Translations under genes and position numbers: made by a program
In this document: one piece after another, positions 1 through 7,619 of the stretch
Layout: each line of letters starts with the position of its first letter
Position numbering within the stretch: position 1 is the stretch's first letter
The notes under the pieces: generated by a model
Seen by the model: the letters and a program-made list of their open reading frames with translations, nothing else
The model's database searches: none
What the model was told of the DNA's origin: nothing
IMG/VR virus record: IMGVR_UViG_3300021962_000104
Location: 1-62,063 of that record
Source: a virus
Direction: 5' to 3' (one strand)
DNA length: 62,063 nucleotides

Positions 1-1
1 G

Positions 2-823
2 AAGGGCATTCTCAAGTCTGGTATCTTCTATCCCATCTACATCACAGGTCACTCTGGTAACGGCAAGACCATGGGTGTCGAACAGGCGTGCGCGCAGCTC
101 GGTCGCGAGTTGATTCGTGTGAACGTCACCAAGACCACCGACGAGATCGAGTTGTTTGGTTCCTACGAACTGATCAACGGCGACACCGTGCGTACCGATG
201 GTCCTGTAACCACTGCGATGCGTCGTGGTGCGGTGCTGTTGCTCGACGAGAGTGACTACGGTGCCGAGGGTTTGACCTGCCTTCAGGGTGTAATGGAAGG
301 CAAGCCATACTACGACAAGCGCACTGGTGAGGTCATTCATCCTGCCGCTGGTTTCATGATCGTTGCTACTGGTAACACCAAGGGCAAGGGCGACATCGAC
401 GGTCGCTACATGTATACCAACACCATGAACGAAGCGTTCCTGGAGCGTTTCGCCATCACCGTTGAGCAGGATTATCCGCCAGCCTCTGTTGAGCGCAAGA
501 TTTTGTCAAAGAACTTTAGCGAGTTGAATCTGTCTGATGATGGTTTCATTGATCACCTGATCAACTGGGCTGAGGTGATCCGCAAGTCTTTCAAGGAAGG
601 TGCGGTGGATGAGGTTATCACCACTCGCCGTCTGGTTCACATCGCGAAAGCCTATGCAATCTTTCAGGATCGCTCTCGTGCAATTCAGATGTGTCTGAAT
701 CGTTTCGACGAAGATACCAAGAATGCGTTCATGGATCTGTATACCAAGGTTGATCCTACAGCCAACACCGTGGCTGATGCGGTTTCAACCGAGGATCGGA
801 TTGAAAGTGATCCTGAGTTCTAA
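2..823 (+). CDS. AAA+ ATPase, MoxR/CbbQ-like (5' truncated)
   Basis: The reading frame is open from base 2, so the gene starts before the window. The Walker A motif (GHSGNGKT) lies upstream of the first internal ATG at 71, so that ATG is not the true start. Walker B is VLLLDESD, and a sensor-like segment (IVATGNTKGKG) follows. This arrangement is typical of MoxR-type AAA+ ATPases, which remodel protein partners using ATP. The partner is unknown; no VWA-domain gene is visible. Leucine codons here are mostly CTG/TTG, unlike the CTA-rich neighbours after 1.3 kb. A second, different AAA+ gene lies near the other end of the window (60759). Confidence 0.8.
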   Translation, partial: KGILKSGIFYPIYITGHSGNGKTMGVEQACAQLGRELIRVNVTKTTDEIELFGSYELINGDTVRTDGPVTTAMRRGAVLLLDESDYGAEGLTCLQGVMEGKPYYDKRTGEVIHPAAGFMIVATGNTKGKGDIDGRYMYTNTMNEAFLERFAITVEQDYPPASVERKILSKNFSELNLSDDGFIDHLINWAEVIRKSFKEGAVDEVITTRRLVHIAKAYAIFQDRSRAIQMCLNRFDEDTKNAFMDLYTKVDPTANTVADAVSTEDRIESDPEF

Positions 824-829
824 AAAGAT

Positions 830-858
830 TTGCCATTACACTCTTTTCAGAGTATAAT
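830..858 (+). promoter_or_regulatory. Sigma70-like promoter, TTGCCA-N17-TATAAT
   Basis: -35 TTGCCA at 830-835, 17-base spacer, -10 TATAAT at 853-858, directly after the ATPase gene and before the helix-turn-helix gene. An ATG begins seven bases after the last -10 base (865), as at six other promoters in the window. Confidence 0.75.
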
Positions 859-864
859 GGTATT

Positions 865-890
865 ATGTTAGGCAAACCGCAACCTAACAT
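865..890 (+). promoter_or_regulatory. 5'-terminal hairpin of the HTH-gene transcript, with a mini-ORF
   Basis: ATGTTAGG (865-872) pairs perfectly with CCTAACAT (883-890). If transcription starts about seven bases after the -10, the mRNA would begin with this hairpin, which could protect the 5' end. The same ATG opens a 24-codon reading frame (865-939) that runs into the next gene's start at 926. Whether it is translated cannot be told from sequence. Confidence 0.5.
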
Positions 891-925
891 TGAATTGAAG
901 TGCGGTGTTTTAGTTGAGGTGTTTT

Positions 926-1213
926 ATGTCTGCTGTTAATTCTATGTTTGATTACCTGCGCAGTGGTCGCTCTGTTACCACCAAGCAGGCTCGCACTCTG
1001 TTCAAGGTGAGCAATGTTGCTGATCTTGTCTACCGTTTGCGTAACGAAGGTGCTCCGATTTACACTAATCGTGTCACCACTAGCCGTGGCGAGAAGACTT
1101 TCTCTTATCGTCTAGGTATGCCGAGTTCTGCTTTTCAGGGTTACACTGACTCTGGTCACCGCGCTCGTGCTCGCAAGACTCTATACCGTGATGCCATCTC
1201 TGTAAGCATCTAA
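926..1213 (+). CDS. Small helix-turn-helix protein
   Basis: 95 residues from ATG 926, chosen because GAGG lies seven bases upstream; a TTG at 914 is in frame but lacks such a site. The N-terminal half (SVTTKQARTLFKVSN, then VADLVYRLRNEGAPI) has the spacing of a winged helix-turn-helix DNA-binding domain, a pattern common in small phage proteins. It has its own promoter and is followed by two hairpins, so it forms a single-gene unit. It could be an early regulator of phage or host transcription; the target is unknown. Confidence 0.65.
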   Translation: MSAVNSMFDYLRSGRSVTTKQARTLFKVSNVADLVYRLRNEGAPIYTNRVTTSRGEKTFSYRLGMPSSAFQGYTDSGHRARARKTLYRDAISVSI

Positions 1214-1219
1214 GAGTCC

Positions 1220-1275
1220 ATCATCTTACTTTCTCCATCGGTAAGATGATAGTCGTGGGGGCGCAATGCCCCCAC
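1220..1275 (+). terminator. Tandem hairpins, probable terminator region
   Basis: A perfect 10-bp stem (1220-1229 with 1241-1250) is followed by a perfect 8-bp GC-rich stem (GTGGGGGC at 1255-1262 with GCCCCCAC at 1268-1275, five-base loop). The downstream sequence is T-rich (ATTTCATTT) but has no clean T-run. It separates the helix-turn-helix gene from the modification operon. Confidence 0.6.
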
Positions 1276-1282
1276 ATTTCAT

Positions 1283-1311
1283 TTGCCATTTTGGAAAAAA
1301 ACATATATAAT
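1283..1311 (+). promoter_or_regulatory. Sigma70-like promoter of the modification operon
   Basis: -35 TTGCCA at 1283-1288, 17-base spacer, -10 TATAAT at 1306-1311. ATG occurs at 1318, seven bases past the -10; that ATG opens only a 12-codon frame and the real gene starts at 1338. Confidence 0.75.
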
Positions 1312-1337
1312 CACATGATGACAAATAGGAGATTTCT

Positions 1338-2639
1338 ATGGTTCGAACAATTGTAGCCAAAGAAAAAGTAGATTGTGAGCATCTGCTTGGACAATTTGTA
1401 GATGAAAATCATTATGATGTCTTAGTAGAAGAAGATACAGATTGTTATATGCCCAACCTATTGGGTGGTGATGCTAAGACAGAACAAAATATCGCATTCA
1501 AGTTTCGTAAAAACTTTTTCACCAAGAAAGAACAAAAAGCGGCATATGAAGGTCTGAGAGAAGCCGCACTACCAACTCAAAATCGCGGACTTGCTGCTGG
1601 ACCAAAGGGCGCAATGTGCGGTGGACGTGAGTGGGTTACTGAGTTTCAATTGCGTGTGTTACAGTACTTTCAGAAGGGACAGGAGAACACTGCAATCAAA
1701 ATTGATGCGGAGAAAGAGGTCGCTAATCTCCGCGAGTTATATGGAGAAAAAGAATCAACACGCGGTCTTGTTTGGCTTTCGGCAAAAGTAAAGGCTGATA
1801 ATTTTCAGTTTGAAAAATGGCTGAAGGGTGCATTGAAGGCATCTGTGAAAGCCAGAAAGGAAGCAGCAAATAAAGTTGCAGAAAAATATATTTCAGATAC
1901 AACCTATGCCAATCAAGTCAATTCTGGTATCGCTGGTTGGTTTGATCGTTATCCACGCATTCCATACGGTCGTGCAACAGCCTACACGCAAAATGAATTT
2001 GATAAGTTTGAGAAGTCATTCCCATTCTTGCAGTCTCTAAATCGTGGATTCAAAGAACTTCTTCCGCAGCGTTGGGGGAATCAACGTGCTGCAGCAGATA
2101 CAATGGATCAGCGATTCCTAGTTCCTGAAACTGTATTCTCTACCATCACTGTTAATAAGACTTTCCGTACAGCCTGTCACCGCGATGCTGGTGACTTCAG
2201 CGATGGTCTAAGCAATCTGCTTGTACTTTCCAATGATGGTCGTTTCACTGGTGGTTATCTGGTATTCCCTGAGTATAGAACCGCAGTGAATGTGAGACCA
2301 GGAGATCTATTGCTTGTAAACAATCATGAGATCATTCATGGTAACACTCCAATTGTATGTGAAGAAGGTAGCGAGCGTATCAGTCTAGTTTGTTATCTTC
2401 GAGAGAAGATGCTTGAGTTGGGTTCTTATGAATATGAGAATTGGCGCTATCAGTTTGTTGAATCAAGAAGGCTCAACAAAGAACACAAACTTTGGAAGCC
2501 ACTCTGGAATGGTGTAAGTGAAGGTATGTGGGATTCCGATGAGTGGTTTGAGTATCTAGAAAAGAACGGCGGAGCAGAGATGGTGGAAAAATACCATCCA
2601 AAAACTGAATCTGCATCTACATTGGATGCATTTCTATAA
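1338..2639 (+). CDS. TET/JBP-family 2-oxoglutarate/Fe(II) DNA-pyrimidine dioxygenase
   Basis: 433 residues. The C-terminal half carries the double-stranded beta-helix signature: HRD (H281, D283), a GG-L-FPEY strand, PGDLLLVNN, the distal iron ligand H334 in HGNTPI, and R347 placed to bind 2-oxoglutarate. The H-x-D-AGDF context with the FTGGYLVFPE strand is the TET/JBP pattern rather than that of prolyl hydroxylases. Known members oxidise the methyl group of 5-methylcytosine (TET, some phage enzymes) or thymine (JBP) in DNA. The N-terminal 200 residues include a Lys/Glu-rich helical insert (about 120-185). It is the first gene of a cluster whose other members fit base tailoring. Whether the substrate is 5mC or T cannot be decided; no cytosine-5 methyltransferase lies in the window. 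ATG 1338 follows AGGAG. Confidence 0.75.
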   Translation: MVRTIVAKEKVDCEHLLGQFVDENHYDVLVEEDTDCYMPNLLGGDAKTEQNIAFKFRKNFFTKKEQKAAYEGLREAALPTQNRGLAAGPKGAMCGGREWVTEFQLRVLQYFQKGQENTAIKIDAEKEVANLRELYGEKESTRGLVWLSAKVKADNFQFEKWLKGALKASVKARKEAANKVAEKYISDTTYANQVNSGIAGWFDRYPRIPYGRATAYTQNEFDKFEKSFPFLQSLNRGFKELLPQRWGNQRAAADTMDQRFLVPETVFSTITVNKTFRTACHRDAGDFSDGLSNLLVLSNDGRFTGGYLVFPEYRTAVNVRPGDLLLVNNHEIIHGNTPIVCEEGSERISLVCYLREKMLELGSYEYENWRYQFVESRRLNKEHKLWKPLWNGVSEGMWDSDEWFEYLEKNGGAEMVEKYHPKTESASTLDAFL

Positions 2640-3328
2640 TGTGTGCCGTAATTGGGGTGTTGCTTGCCCAGGCAACCGAAGAAAATCTAAGTCTAGTCCG
2701 CAATGTATTCCTTGAGTCTAGGATTCGAGGATTACATGCAACTGGAATTTCATTCTTACAGAAAAACATAAAATCAATCATTGATCCTGTTCCAGCGGAT
2801 CAATTTGTGAATCGTCATCTAACATATCCAATTGAAAACTATCTAAACAGCGACGGCAATCTATACATGATTGGTCACTGCAGATATAGCACCAGTGATC
2901 TTGAGTACAATCAACCGATCTATAATGATCGCGCTTCAATAGTCCACAATGGTGTCATCTCTCAGGAACTCTATGAGAACTGGGAGAAACTATACAAGAT
3001 CAAAACAAAAACAAAAAATGACTCTGAGTTGCTTTTACACACAATAGAAAACGAACCACTGCAACTATGGGAGAATGCTTCCATCGCAGCAATTGAACTT
3101 CATCATGAGCGTATGTTGATTGCATATCGCAACGGAAAGCGACCTATATATTTGACAAAGTTGAAGAATGGTTATATAATTACTTCTACGAAAGACATTA
3201 TGACTCGCGCATCAAAGGGTAAATACGAAGCCAAGATGCTTGAGATGAATCAGCGTGTTGTGATGACTGCTGAAGATTTTTCTTATAGATATATTCCTAC
3301 CAATAGTTATGACTTGCAAATTCATTGA
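2639..3328 (+). CDS. Class II (Ntn-type) glutamine amidotransferase domain protein
   Basis: 229 residues, starting Met-Cys so that removal of Met exposes the N-terminal cysteine nucleophile (MCAVIGV). Further class II hallmarks are the RGLHATGI loop, GHCRYST, the oxyanion-type segment IVHNGVIS, and NDSELLLHTI. Such domains release ammonia from glutamine for a synthetase partner. There is no attached synthetase domain, so ammonia would go to another protein or the enzyme acts as an amidase. Its ATG overlaps the dioxygenase stop (TAATG), implying coupled translation and a role in the same pathway. A DNA-modification role is inferred from context only. Confidence 0.8.
   Translation: MCAVIGVLLAQATEENLSLVRNVFLESRIRGLHATGISFLQKNIKSIIDPVPADQFVNRHLTYPIENYLNSDGNLYMIGHCRYSTSDLEYNQPIYNDRASIVHNGVISQELYENWEKLYKIKTKTKNDSELLLHTIENEPLQLWENASIAAIELHHERMLIAYRNGKRPIYLTKLKNGYIITSTKDIMTRASKGKYEAKMLEMNQRVVMTAEDFSYRYIPTNSYDLQIH
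3152..3180 (+). promoter_or_regulatory. Consensus sigma70-like promoter inside the amidotransferase gene
   Basis: TTGACA (3152-3157), 17 bases, TATAAT (3175-3180). It would give extra transcription of the acetyltransferase, transferase and kinase genes. It is inside coding sequence and lacks the ATG at +7, so it may be fortuitous. Confidence 0.45.
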
Positions 3329-3950
3329 TTCAGAACAAGTAAAGCATATTCTAGTAAAATCTACCGAAGGAAAGAATACCAAATTTCTTTCTGCTTCACA
3401 CAGTCTTTGGACTAGATTTAAGAACTATGATTCAAGTCCACCATTTGCACTGATCAAGAATGATCAGGTTGTTTCTCTAATCTACGCCACATTCAATCGC
3501 GATGGATATACTAATCTATATGACATTGTTACAGTGCAGGGTCAAGAAGGGCATGGGTATGCATCTGAGATTTGGGATCACTATGTTGAATATGCTTGCA
3601 ATAAGAAGAATAGTAAACGATTAAAAATCTCTTGTACACCTTCTTCTCTAACATGGCACATGCGCAATGGTCTTGTTTTTTGGGCTGTGGATCCAACTGG
3701 ATCTTTGCGTAGTGATCAACCAATATTCAAGAATAGAGAAGAGCAAATGATCTTTCGTAAACTAGCAATTGATGATCCATCCATAGCACTACCTTCAGAA
3801 AAGGCTTGTGAAAGATTGCGTAAAGAATCATTAGAATCCCATGAGTTTGGCACTAAGAAAAAATCAATTGTTGAACAAGCAATAAAAACTGCTGGTGAAA
3901 CATGGCTTCGTGATGCATTATTTGGGAAGACATTATTCGATGTCGCATGA
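3309..3950 (+). CDS. GNAT-family acetyltransferase-like protein
   Basis: 213 residues. The central part reads as a GNAT fold: a strand (PFALIKNDQVVSLIYA), then YDIVTVQGQEGHGYASEIW, where QGQEGHG-A matches the acetyl-CoA pyrophosphate-binding loop (Q/R-x-x-G-x-G/A), then a helix and the strand LKISCTPSS. The C-terminal 70 residues are helical and unassigned. It overlaps the amidotransferase gene by 20 bases. GNATs acetylate amines, so it could modify an amino group added to the phage base by its neighbours; that is inference. Confidence 0.6.
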   Translation: MTCKFIDSEQVKHILVKSTEGKNTKFLSASHSLWTRFKNYDSSPPFALIKNDQVVSLIYATFNRDGYTNLYDIVTVQGQEGHGYASEIWDHYVEYACNKKNSKRLKISCTPSSLTWHMRNGLVFWAVDPTGSLRSDQPIFKNREEQMIFRKLAIDDPSIALPSEKACERLRKESLESHEFGTKKKSIVEQAIKTAGETWLRDALFGKTLFDVA

Positions 3951-4935
3951 AAGACGTGAACTATTCATTCGCTGGTATGCGTGGTCTCTAGAATATAGAG
4001 ACTGCGATCCAGCGGTATGGATGACTCAATATCTAAACAATAGATATGAGCATAACATAGAAGAAAGAATCTGGCTATGCTGGTTGTATGGAAATACATA
4101 CCAGCTTCCAACTGCATGGGTTCTAAAAAATGAATTCCCCGACTATGAGTTGGCGACTGTAGATCGCATCACTCAATGGAACACTGCAAACTATAAGAGA
4201 CTTCGCTACCAAGTAGATACGAAGTGGAACAAGGGTCATCTTCCTGCGATGTTTGAATCCTATCAAAAATTTATTGGTGACAAATCGCAGAAGGAAGTCC
4301 TGGAGAGTTACTATGGCGACAACGAAGAAGAAACCTTCGACAATCTATGGAATGCTATTAAAACTAATCTTCATAAGTTTGGTCGTTATTCCACTTGGTT
4401 TTATCTACAACACTTGCATCACACTGCTGGAATATTTGCGGCTCCTACTAGCCTTATGTTCTCTGATTATTCTGGCTCTCGTTCACATCGTAATGGCTTT
4501 GTTCTTGCCATCGGCGAGGATGACAGTTATGATAAACAACTTACTGCAAAAGAATATCAAAATCTTGAGGGAGTGGCTAAAGATATAATTGTTGAAATGC
4601 GTGAAAGATTCCCCAATTTATCTCATGAAATAGATTTTTATACAATGGAAACCTGTCTGTGCTCATTCAAGAAGATATTCCGAGAGCATCACGGTCGTTA
4701 TCTTGGCTATTATCTTGATCGCCAGTCAGAAGAAATCGTGCGAGCGGAACAAGATGGTTGGTATGGTATTGAGTGGAATGTTCTTTGGCAAGCAAGAAAT
4801 GAAACGCTATTTCCTGCACTCGCTGGAAGAAATAAAATTAACAAAGAAAACTTTACTTACTTCTTGAGATCAGGTAAACTACAACGAATGGACTGGATGT
4901 TCGAAGATAAGACAGAGATAGGATTGTATGCCTAA
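3940..4935 (+). CDS. Amino acid:DNA transferase-like helical protein (aGPT-PPlase/ADDT type)
   Basis: 331 residues from ATG 3940. The start gives an 11-base overlap with the GNAT gene; the in-frame ATG at 3895 would overlap 56 bases. It is mostly helical and rich in W and Y. Segments such as EERIWLCWLYGNTYQLPTA, NEFPDYE, FGRYSTWFYLQHLHHTAG, SRSHRNGFVLAIG, ETCLCSFKK and GRYLGYYLDRQSEEI resemble what I recall of phage proteins called alpha-glutamyl/putrescinyl-thymine pyrophosphorylase or amino acid:DNA transferase. Those replace the activated 5-hydroxymethyl group of a modified pyrimidine in DNA with an amine-bearing group. The assignment is from memory of the family pattern, not from a search. 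Context (TET, kinase, amidotransferase) supports it. Confidence 0.6.
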   Translation: MSHERRELFIRWYAWSLEYRDCDPAVWMTQYLNNRYEHNIEERIWLCWLYGNTYQLPTAWVLKNEFPDYELATVDRITQWNTANYKRLRYQVDTKWNKGHLPAMFESYQKFIGDKSQKEVLESYYGDNEEETFDNLWNAIKTNLHKFGRYSTWFYLQHLHHTAGIFAAPTSLMFSDYSGSRSHRNGFVLAIGEDDSYDKQLTAKEYQNLEGVAKDIIVEMRERFPNLSHEIDFYTMETCLCSFKKIFREHHGRYLGYYLDRQSEEIVRAEQDGWYGIEWNVLWQARNETLFPALAGRNKINKENFTYFLRSGKLQRMDWMFEDKTEIGLYA

Positions 4936-5494
4936 GATAATTGCAATTGGTGGTGTTCCTGCAACGGGAAAGACCACTCTTATGTTTAAGATCATTTCAA
5001 TGGCTGATGACTGGAAGGTTATCAAGCCACAGAAACTTTTGGACGCAATGTTCAGCAAGAAATTGCGAACTGTAATTCTTGGTAAGTATCAAGATGATGG
5101 TAACGTATTCCAGGGAACTGATCGTCTAAGCATGGCAGTCCAACCAGACGCTGAAAAGTTCTTTGAAGAAGTCAAAGAGCAGAAGATCAACGTGCTGTTT
5201 GAGGGTGATCGTCTATTCAATGCAAAGATGTTAAACTCTCTGTCTGAGTCATACAGTGAATCAGACTTTAGAATTGTGGTCATACAAGCCAATCACGATA
5301 TCGTAGAACAGAGACATATTGATCGCAAGGATGACCAAGATGAGAAATTCAAGCGCAGTCGCGAAACAAAAATCTCAAACATCAGCGGAAACCTCCAGTT
5401 GATGGACTATATAGATACTGTAGACAATAATAATCTTGATGATCAAAAATTGATCATTGAATATATTAGCAAACATTTTAACTGGAGTGAATAA
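4928..5494 (+). CDS. P-loop kinase, candidate hydroxymethylpyrimidine DNA kinase
   Basis: 188 residues. A Walker A motif (GGVPATGKTT, residues 8-17) starts the protein and a Walker B-like strand (INVLFEGDRLF) lies mid-chain. An Arg-rich lid follows (RHIDRKDDQDEKFKRSRE). The fold is that of small nucleotide or polynucleotide kinases. In thymidine-hypermodifying phages a DNA kinase phosphorylates 5-hydroxymethyluracil in DNA before amino-acid transfer. This gene overlaps the transferase-like gene by 8 bases, so that role is proposed here. A free-nucleotide kinase is the main alternative. Confidence 0.6.
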   Translation: MPKIIAIGGVPATGKTTLMFKIISMADDWKVIKPQKLLDAMFSKKLRTVILGKYQDDGNVFQGTDRLSMAVQPDAEKFFEEVKEQKINVLFEGDRLFNAKMLNSLSESYSESDFRIVVIQANHDIVEQRHIDRKDDQDEKFKRSRETKISNISGNLQLMDYIDTVDNNNLDDQKLIIEYISKHFNWSE

Positions 5495-5496
5495 TT

Positions 5497-6309
5497 ATGC
5501 AGATTGAAATCTCAGTAGAAGAACTAAGAAAAAAGAAACTGTTCGTTGCAACACCGATGTATGGTGGTCAGTGTTTTGGTATGTACACCAAGTCAGCACT
5601 TGATCTACAGGCTGTTTGTGCTAACTATGGAGTTGAGATTCGATTCTCATTTATCTTTAATGAATCGCTAATCACAAGAGCAAGAAACTATCTAGTAGAT
5701 GAATTCTTGCGTTCTGGATTCACTCATCTACTATTCCTAGATTCAGATATTCATTTTGATCCAAGAGACGTGATTGCACTTCTTGCTTTGGATAAAGAAA
5801 TCATTGGCGCACCGTATCCAAAGAAGTCAATCAAGTGGAATGCAATCAAAGATGCGATCGTAAAGAATCCTAATATTGAAGTCAAAGAACTGGAGAAACT
5901 TGCTGGTGATTTTGTGTTCAATCCAGTTCCTGGCACAGAAAGGTTCTCAGTTTCTGCACCAATTGAAGTTCTAGAAATTGGAACTGGATTCATGATGGTG
6001 AAGCGTGAAGTGTTCAAGCAGTTTGAAGAGAGATATCCTAATTTGCGATACAAGCCAGATCATGTTGGTCAGGCTAACTTCGATGGATCTCGTTACATTC
6101 ACGCATACTTTGACACTGTAATTGATACAGTAGAGAATGGTGGTAAGGGGTCTGATCGTTATCTATCTGAGGACTACATGTTCTGTCAGTGGTGGAGAAA
6201 CATGGGTGGTAAGATTTGGTTATGTCCATGGATGAAGACTCATCATATTGGTACTTATGCCTTCACAGGAGACATGCCAGCAGTGGCGAATTTCGTGGGG
6301 TCTTTGTGA
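5497..6309 (+). CDS. GT-A-fold glycosyltransferase
   Basis: 270 residues. An N-terminal strand (LFVATPMYGGQCFGMYT) and a helix with ITRARNYLVDEFL precede the metal and nucleotide-sugar binding strand HLLFLDSDIHFDP (DxD at about residues 86-88). Later residues include GTGFMMVKREVF, LSEDYMFCQWW and a metal-ligand-like HH in MKTHHIGT. This is the GT-A architecture of inverting or retaining phage glycosyltransferases. GGAG at 5483-5486 is its ribosome site. As last gene of the modification cluster it may glycosylate the hydroxymethylated or tailored base; a virion or host target is also possible. Confidence 0.7.
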   Translation: MQIEISVEELRKKKLFVATPMYGGQCFGMYTKSALDLQAVCANYGVEIRFSFIFNESLITRARNYLVDEFLRSGFTHLLFLDSDIHFDPRDVIALLALDKEIIGAPYPKKSIKWNAIKDAIVKNPNIEVKELEKLAGDFVFNPVPGTERFSVSAPIEVLEIGTGFMMVKREVFKQFEERYPNLRYKPDHVGQANFDGSRYIHAYFDTVIDTVENGGKGSDRYLSEDYMFCQWWRNMGGKIWLCPWMKTHHIGTYAFTGDMPAVANFVGSL

Positions 6310-6941
6310 TAATAGGTCTTGTTGGTTTTATAGGAAGTGGAAAGGGAACCGTCGCTGATCTTCTAGTAGAGCACCACGGTTTCGTCAAAGAGAGTTTTGC
6401 TAACAGCGTCAAAGATTCTGTGGCTGCTGTCTTTGGTTGGCATCGTGAATTGCTGGAGGGTGCAACGCCCGAGTCTAGACAATGGCGTGAGCAGAAAGAT
6501 GAGTGGTGGTCAAATGCTCTAGGTCGCGAAGTGACACCACGTTGGGTGTTACAGCTGATGGGTACTGAAGCAGGACGCGATGTGTTTCATCCCGATCTTT
6601 GGGTACACACTGTCTTCCGTAGAATAGATTGGCATCCCGAACAACACTACGTTATTGCTGATGTTCGTTTTCCAAACGAGATCAAAGCCATTCAAAAACA
6701 TGGAGGCAAAGTTGTTCAGGTCACTCGCGGTGATCTTCCTTGGTGGTATCAGAAAGCTGAGGATCATAATCGCGCAGGTGCACATTTTCAATGGCTGGTT
6801 GACAACGTCCATGAGAGTGAATGGGCATGGGTTGGTAGCACCGTTGATTATCTTCTCCCTAATACTGAAGATATAGAAACTCTAAAGGAAAGAGTTGACA
6901 ACATGGTTGGAATTTTATATAATAGTTATGTTACACAATGA
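6306..6941 (+). CDS. 1: Deoxynucleoside monophosphate kinase (T4 gp1-like)
   Basis: 211 residues from GTG 6306, which overlaps the previous stop (GTGA). The P-loop is GFIGSGKGT at residues 6-14. The body contains WRE-KDEWW, TPRWVLQLMGTE and VIADVRFPNEI, the pattern of T4 gene 1 dNMP kinase. T4's enzyme converts dTMP, dGMP and 5-hydroxymethyl-dCMP to diphosphates. Here it would feed phage DNA synthesis, and it lies between the modification operon and the clamp gene. Longer in-frame starts (6216) would lie inside the glycosyltransferase gene. Confidence 0.85.
   Translation: MIIGLVGFIGSGKGTVADLLVEHHGFVKESFANSVKDSVAAVFGWHRELLEGATPESRQWREQKDEWWSNALGREVTPRWVLQLMGTEAGRDVFHPDLWVHTVFRRIDWHPEQHYVIADVRFPNEIKAIQKHGGKVVQVTRGDLPWWYQKAEDHNRAGAHFQWLVDNVHESEWAWVGSTVDYLLPNTEDIETLKERVDNMVGILYNSYVTQ
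6895..6923 (+). promoter_or_regulatory. Perfect-consensus promoter before the sliding clamp gene
   Basis: TTGACA (6895-6900), 17 bases, TATAAT (6918-6923), inside the 3' end of the dNMP kinase gene and 28 bases before the clamp ATG. An ATG occurs five rather than seven bases after the -10. A normal leader with GAGG follows. Confidence 0.75.
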
Positions 6942-6950
6942 GGTATCTAT

Positions 6951-7619
6951 ATGAAACTAAGTACAGAAACAATTGATACATTGAAGAACTTTTCAACTAT
7001 CAATTCTAGTATTCTTTTCAAGTCTGGTAAGACATTGACAACAATCTCACCACTGAAGACTGTTCTAGCAACTGCTAAGATTGCTGAGGACATTCCAAGT
7101 GAGTTTGCCATCTATGATCTAAACAAGATGCTTGCTAAGATCGGACTACATAAAGATTGCGAACTGGAGTTTGAGGAAGATCGTGTAGTTTTTGATAGCG
7201 GTCGCCGTTCAGACTACATCAAGCATTGCTCACCAAAGGTGATTGTAACTCCACCAGATAAGAAGTTGACTGTCTCAAATCCAGATTATTCATTTGATCT
7301 AAGTCAGGAAGATCTTGAGTGGCAGCGTAAGAGCGCATCTATCTCAGGCTCACCAAACTTTGTATTTGAAAGCGATGGTGATAAGATCTATCTTGTGTCA
7401 ACTGACGTCAAGGATGATTCCGCTGATCGTTCTCAGACTGAGATTGGTGAAGGTGACGGTCGTAAGTTTTCTATTGTCATGAAGGTTGAGAACTTCAAGA
7501 TGATGGAAGGTAACTACACAATTGAAGTCTCAAAGCGTGGTCTGTCTAAGTTTACTAACAAGGACAAGGACATTGAGTATTTTATCGCAATCGAAGCAGC
7601 ACAATCGAGGTTTGAATAA
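6951..7619 (+). CDS. 45: Sliding clamp, DNA polymerase processivity factor (T4 gp45)
   Basis: 222 residues, close to T4 gp45 (228). The N-terminus (LSTETIDTLKNFSTINSSI), a domain-linking strand (DLSQEDLEWQRKSAS), and the C-terminal SIVMKVENFKMMEGNYTIE and YFIAIEA match the gp45 family. The trimeric clamp encircles DNA, tethers gp43 and, in T4, also activates late transcription. The gene is the first of the 45-44-62-regA series and has a perfect promoter and a GAGG ribosome site. Confidence 0.9.
   Translation: MKLSTETIDTLKNFSTINSSILFKSGKTLTTISPLKTVLATAKIAEDIPSEFAIYDLNKMLAKIGLHKDCELEFEEDRVVFDSGRRSDYIKHCSPKVIVTPPDKKLTVSNPDYSFDLSQEDLEWQRKSASISGSPNFVFESDGDKIYLVSTDVKDDSADRSQTEIGEGDGRKFSIVMKVENFKMMEGNYTIEVSKRGLSKFTNKDKDIEYFIAIEAAQSRFE

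Follow-up and report, generated by a model that had tools for sequence, protein, structure and literature searches.

The gene at 1338-2639 of the window (the whole stretch of DNA analysed here, 62,063 bp) very likely encodes a DNA thymine 5-hydroxylase that takes the place of a dUMP hydroxymethylase. The original prediction had weighed thymine against 5-methylcytosine (5mC) as the substrate of this TET/JBP enzyme. We infer that thymine oxidation is the most likely and best-supported reading because no cytosine-5 methyltransferase (C5-methyltransferase) was found in the sequence at hand of this phage, in related contigs or in four complete related genomes, because the neighbouring amino acid:DNA transferase (ADDT) matches a 5-phosphomethyl-dU enzyme in structure, and because TET and ThyA-family proteins replace one another among related phages. 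Computation established the fold, the intact ligands, the gene order and the family membership, and showed no C5-methyltransferase in the sequence at hand; the identity of substrate and product, the individual reactions and the anti-restriction role are deduced.

In the pathway that we propose, replicated phage DNA with ordinary thymine would be the starting material. The TET/JBP enzyme would use Fe(II), 2-oxoglutarate and O2 to hydroxylate the 5-methyl group of some DNA thymines, giving 5-hydroxymethyluracil (5hmU), and a P-loop kinase would phosphorylate the hydroxymethyl group. The ADDT would then swap the phosphate for an amino acid, and an amidotransferase and a GNAT protein may shorten this group or modify it further. 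The resulting hypermodified thymine would protect the DNA from restriction enzymes.

The TET/JBP gene and its operon

The 433-residue product of 1338-2639 (+ strand, ATG start) is a TET/JBP 2-oxoglutarate- and Fe(II)-dependent dioxygenase, well beyond chance, and is the predicted thymine-in-DNA 5-hydroxylase. In Pfam it scored 78.6 bits with PF12851 (Tet_JBP; cut-off 34.9, E=4.1e-22, residues 220-356), and over nearly its full length it matched phrog_24024 (E 1e-166), which PHROG labels as function unknown. The original prediction of a TET/JBP enzyme with intact ligands was borne out, as H281, D283, H334 and R347 are all present and are invariant across 33 aligned homologues. In a profile comparison with human TET2, H281 and D283 fell on the HxD motif and R347 on the 2-oxoglutarate arginine. 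Y353 is also invariant and aligned in this comparison to the TET2 tyrosine two residues ahead of H1904, which we take to be the base-stacking tyrosine. An AlphaFold2 model (mean pLDDT 89.7) had TET2 as its best fold match (Z 20.6, 267 residues, rmsd 3.9), with CMD1 (Z 19.8), NgTET1 (17.8) and CcTet (16.9) next and ALKBH3 (13.6) after them.

We considered whether the pocket itself carries a signature for thymine or 5mC. The residue aligned to TET2 H1904 (R355 in the window) is Arg in window-type enzymes, mostly Asp in Melnitz-type enzymes and Leu in the actinophage enzymes. Window-type and Melnitz-type TETs have D286, which aligns to TET2 N1387, in common. These patterns give no simple substrate code; the differences at the base edge (R355, Asp, Leu or His) are suggestive without decoding the substrate.

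Many window-type TETs, including those of L013, L011 and L014, carry a Cys-rich insert (CxxxCxxC, alignment columns ~90-115) that the window enzyme lacks and that may be a zinc knuckle. The TET genes of DLP6 (L001:9001-10347), Cr30 (L002:9001-10329) and S-CBWM1 (L004:3729-5165) are annotated as 'SNF2 DNA repair protein'. This tag looks like a carried-over annotation error because Tet_JBP is the sole Pfam domain in the S-CBWM1 protein.

The TET gene heads a tight operon on the + strand in which the genes for the amidotransferase, GNAT, ADDT and kinase overlap or abut. Just 5' of it lie a terminator-like hairpin (1255-1275, + strand; 9-pair stem with 7 G-C pairs) and a sigma-70-like promoter (TTGCCA-17-TATAAT, 1283-1311, + strand; 11/12 consensus bases), both identified as consensus matches only, and an AGGAG sequence resembling a ribosome-binding site falls between the promoter and the TET ATG. 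Directly 5' of TET, HTVC112P (L005:6973-7602) and several actinophages (L218:1-798, L220:1-804) have genes for ParB-like domains; in the window a different small protein (914-1213) precedes TET. The start of the next gene, encoding a class II (Ntn-type) glutamine amidotransferase (2639-3328; PF13522, E 1.2e-11), overlaps the TET stop codon. Its product begins MCAVIG, making Cys2 a candidate nucleophile, and the amidotransferase gene adjoins TET in many relatives. A GNAT-family acetyltransferase (3309-3950; PF00583, E 1e-4) occupies the same position in other relatives with this module and possibly acylates the installed group. The ADDT gene follows (3895-4935; PF18724, E 4.6e-19), with its true start probably the ATG at 3940, and then the gene for the P-loop kinase (4928-5494), predicted from a profile alignment to M6 gp54 to be a 5-hydroxymethyl-dU DNA kinase.

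Three more + strand genes complete the region. The product of 5497-6309 is a glycosyltransferase-like protein (phrog_1574, E 5e-60) whose gene is beside the sliding clamp gene in most relatives, across all main module types. Because it stands beside the clamp gene whatever the module, it is probably part of the phage backbone and outside the pathway. The deoxynucleoside monophosphate kinase (DNMK; 6216-6941; PF21448, E 1.9e-9; phrog_139, E 1.8e-46) also adjoins glycosyltransferase-type modules and is not specific to the TET pathway. A T4 gp45-like sliding clamp (6951-7619; phrog_223, E 5e-64) is the conserved flank that marks the right-hand boundary of the exchangeable region. We rejected the DNMK and the phrog_1574 gene as specific evidence for thymine, as both occur with several module types.

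Thymine or 5-methylcytosine as substrate

The window is a complete IMG/VR record but a fragment of a genome that is likely near 155 kb, of which roughly 60 kb is unseen. As the original prediction stated, it contains no C5-methyltransferase: PF00145 had no match in the 62 kb. A 37-kb contig (G001, locus L009) overlaps positions 1-6846 at 99.7% identity and, judged by its coordinates, reaches ~30 kb upstream; extending the proposed search of the rest of the genome to this added sequence again yielded no PF00145 match, and no match to PF00303 (ThyA family). PF00145 was likewise absent from 47 related IMG/VR contigs, G001 included, which total 2.48 Mb and of which six measure 140-169 kb. It was also absent from the complete genomes of four related phages (DLP6, Cr30, C48C1 and S-CBWM1) and from those of HTVC112P and P12024L.

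The phages related to Methylophilales phage Melnitz, in which the C5-methyltransferase gene overlaps the TET gene, served as positive controls. An HMM of the Melnitz enzyme found a C5-methyltransferase in 67 of 72 Melnitz-type loci and in none of 85 window-type, 20 P12024L-type and 37 HTVC112P-type loci. PF00145 matched all 10 Melnitz-type records tested and none of 20 other records tested alongside them. Five of these 20 are complete genomes of TET-bearing actinophages, and neither Wooper nor Magpie has a match. Counted per cluster of similar TETs, the enzyme was found in 0/33 clusters against 9/10 for the Melnitz type. Many relatives come from similar environments and are not independent, and we attach no weight to Fisher values. 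Neither the window nor any relative has a C5-methyltransferase next to TET. Four relatives have an N6/N4-type methyltransferase between TET and ADDT (L038:11371-12033) with SPPC in place of the usual SPPY/DPPY. We weighed this gene as a C5 enzyme in disguise; the window has no such gene next to TET.

The original prediction had also taken the kinase and transferase-like neighbours as pointing to thymine. This was upheld for the ADDT, failed for the kinase taken alone, and carried little weight for the DNMK and the phrog_1574 gene. An AlphaFold2 model of the window ADDT (pLDDT 87.9) was, among solved structures, nearest to the 5-phosphomethyl-2'-deoxyuridine glycinyltransferase of Pseudomonas phage PaMx11 (PUGT, 8z2m; Z 18.3, 252 residues, rmsd 3.5), with the next other entry at Z 10.3. 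The relationship is remote (14% identity): sequence searches of the PDB with the ADDT gave no match, and the fold search alone reached 8z2m. M6 gp51 is an ADDT by Pfam and matches the 8z2m entry by sequence, and its alignment to the window ADDT by profile was not convincing. PF18724 was present in 25 of the 50 records tested.

For the kinase, the window family profile aligned to M6 gp54, a PF18748 5-hmdU DNA kinase by Pfam (hhalign probability 96, E 1e-9), and to the Gordonia phage Wooper protein named '5-hmU DNA kinase'; the window protein itself had no direct PF18748 match in Pfam. The motifs GxPxxGK, GTD and EGxR are invariant. Among loci with enough flank, ADDT and kinase occur together in 29, neither occurs in 20 and the kinase alone in 2. 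The purified M6 kinase was reported to modify 5hmdU in DNA, cited as unpublished (PMC6449724). A kinase homologue (31% identity) is also beside TET in Melnitz, and we discarded the kinase as proof of thymine because phages of this type, which bear a C5-methyltransferase, carry the homologue. For the same reason at least one of the downstream partners may work on cytosine derivatives, and among the neighbours it is the ADDT that carries the thymine inference. PHROGs (PHROG 800) and several phage records give this kinase family the wrong name, 'terminase small subunit'; the cases include window 4928-5494, Cr30 in RefSeq and M6 gp54.

Thymidine hypermodification via 5hmdU is experimentally established in the phages M6 (Pseudomonas), ViI (Salmonella) and PhiW-14 (Delftia) (PMC6449724; PMC5977210). 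These three phages and Vibrio phage D506 encode an ADDT and a divergent ThyA-family protein (48-66 bits) and no TET, and DLP6, C48C1, S-CBWM1, Magpie, Serendipitous, Wooper, Cinna and Ottawa encode a TET and no ThyA-family protein. PF00303 had no match in the window, in the 47 related contigs or in the complete genomes of DLP6, C48C1 and S-CBWM1. Cr30 has a TET, an ADDT and a ThyA of 373 bits, the last of which resembles a canonical thymidylate synthase. In Melnitz, our control of the 5mC type, the TET is accompanied by neither ThyA nor ADDT; we examined the long gene after its TET as a candidate ADDT, and by profile it is not one. This mutual replacement among hypermodification phages suggests that one and the same 5hmU handle can come either from TET or from the ThyA-family hydroxymethylase.

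It is conceivable that the enzyme instead acts on 5mC made by a host or by an unseen phage C5-methyltransferase, and that the resulting 5hmC is then decorated by the kinase, the ADDT or glycosyltransferases. The TETs of solved structure that our model matched are 5mC enzymes, and Melnitz phages do combine a TET with a C5-methyltransferase and a kinase homologue. The genome is also incomplete, and a host enzyme could supply 5mC; Caulobacter vibrioides, included as a control genome, has a PF00145 match. However, no C5-methyltransferase appeared in 2.48 Mb of relatives and four complete genomes, although the gene is adjacent to TET in the Melnitz type, and the ADDT matches a 5-phosphomethyl-dU enzyme while no ADDT was found in complete Melnitz. 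Dependence on sparse host 5mC is also unlikely to hold across phages of Caulobacter, Stenotrophomonas, Synechococcus, Mycobacterium and Gordonia. We therefore regard 5mC as an improbable substrate.

Exchange of downstream modules

The TET gene is followed by different gene sets in different relatives. In the window type, an amidotransferase with a GNAT or an amidoligase precedes the ADDT and kinase. Other ADDT-containing modules comprise N6/N4 methyltransferase-ADDT-kinase, PLP enzyme-ADDT-kinase and ADDT-inositol-1-phosphate synthase-kinase, and those lacking ADDT consist of TAGT alone, GT-B alone, the protein F36 or the kinase alone. On a quick TET tree, in which some labels are missing at contig ends, at least 15 module changes separate the labelled rows, and closely related TETs already differ (L020 with TAGT, L023 with GT-B). 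An unchanging TET combined with variable decorating enzymes is in keeping with a shared hydroxymethyl handle. In the relatives, the same first step would lead to TAGT or GT-B glycosyltransferases and a base J-like product, to ADDT with inositol-phosphate synthase, or to ADDT with a PLP enzyme.

We lean, with somewhat better than even confidence, towards a broader proposal: that a large phage group of true thymine dioxygenases writes 5hmU into finished DNA as a common handle for swappable modules, which would give many hypermodified thymines, including base J or base J-like glycosyl-hmU (TAGT-type) and an inositol-derived thymine (Cr30-type).

Several individual modules hint at particular products. 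An inositol-1-phosphate synthase homologue is encoded at L082:9547-10674 and in Cr30 (L002:14293-15474), and because it sits between ADDT and kinase it suggests an inositol-derived DNA modification in Cr30-type modules. Phage C48C1 has a UDP-galactopyranose mutase two genes past TET (L003:11345-12355), which suggests galactofuranosyl decoration of the oxidised base. In Mycobacterium phage Serendipitous (L219:1773-3654), TET is followed by TAGT, a PIG-L-type de-N-acetylase and a kinase, which suggests an amino-sugar on the base.

We weighed two further explanations. The enzyme could be a 2-oxoglutarate dioxygenase whose target is methylated adenine, RNA or a nucleotide and whose neighbours are unrelated; the CcTet structures include a 6mA complex, and four relatives have the N6/N4 methyltransferase beside TET. 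However, neither the window nor most of the relatives have that gene beside TET. The co-occurrence of ADDT and kinase and the repeated swaps of base-decoration modules point to pyrimidine decoration, and Y353 is invariant at the position of the presumed base-stacking tyrosine of TET2, so we consider such a target very unlikely. We give equally little credence to a thymine-active TET whose end product is the hydroxyl itself or a base J-like glycosylation by the phrog_1574 protein (5497-6309), with ADDT and kinase as decaying passengers. A glycosyltransferase-like gene does lie 3 kb downstream, and TAGT-type relatives exist, but the ADDT and kinase ORFs are intact, conserved and overlapping in one operon, and the phrog_1574 gene is also present in relatives that have their own TAGT, which makes it more likely to be backbone.

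The original prediction regarded a thymine-oxidising phage enzyme of JBP type as new; the idea is not wholly so. Thymidine hypermodification and phage TETs are each already known, and work by Iyer from 2013 reportedly predicted phage TET/JBP thymine pathways. Such naming is already used in actinophage annotations (PMC9302106; PMC11955845; the Wooper record). In the literature searched, whose coverage leaves out many journals, we found no experimental demonstration of thymine oxidation by a phage TET. If the proposal is true, phages would have two entries to thymidine hypermodification, through 5hmdUTP before replication or through thymine oxidation after it. There would then be a prokaryotic counterpart of the JBP reaction, which would bear on how base J arose, as well as an enzyme that could serve as a tool for putting 5hmU into ordinary DNA. 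From the repeated swaps of modules, many DNA bases yet to be described are to be expected. Several relatives (Caulobacter phage Cr30, Stenotrophomonas phage DLP6 and Synechococcus phage S-CBWM1) are cultured isolates, so the question is open to direct test; for DLP6, the text consulted presents restriction data and no clearly stated digestion result (PMC5349666).

Comparison with known systems

The window system most resembles thymidine hypermodification in M6, ViI and PhiW-14. All three have an ADDT-family transferase, as the window does; M6 has a 5-hmdU DNA kinase homologous to the window kinase and a PLP enzyme beside its ADDT, as in the relative L011. Those phages, however, produce 5hmdU at the level of the free nucleotide with a dUMP hydroxymethylase of the ThyA family, whereas in the window a TET/JBP gene comes first and no ThyA-family protein was found. 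Because that hydroxymethylase is missing from the sequence at hand, the window system would be a variant of the M6/ViI-type pathway and not a member of it.

With the phage-encoded TET/JBP enzymes of Melnitz-type phages the window enzyme would share a use in pyrimidine hypermodification, and Melnitz also has a kinase homologue. Unlike the window, the Melnitz-type phages have an adjacent C5-methyltransferase, their TETs have only remote similarity to the window enzyme, and the position of TET2 H1904 is mostly Asp. Burke reportedly described phage TETs with a C5-methyltransferase in 2021; we presume those enzymes to be of the Melnitz type.

In kinetoplastids, the TET/JBP proteins JBP1 and JBP2 make 5hmU from DNA thymine during base J synthesis (PMC10057400), the reaction that we propose for the window enzyme. 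The glycosyltransferase step of base J has a counterpart in the TAGT-type relatives, whereas the window is predicted to use amino acid transferase chemistry instead. The window TET has neither a J-binding nor an SNF2 domain, the dioxygenase being its sole Pfam domain.

The ParB-TET-aGPT-Pplase2/ADDT-kinase cluster of actinophages (Gordonia phages Wooper and CaiB, Rhodococcus phage Tonitrus and Mycobacterium phage Magpie) resembles the window in having TET, an ADDT-family transferase and a kinase in one operon (PMC11955845). These phages differ from the window in that their TETs are very divergent and have Leu at the position of R355, in being siphoviruses, and in carrying other accessory genes.
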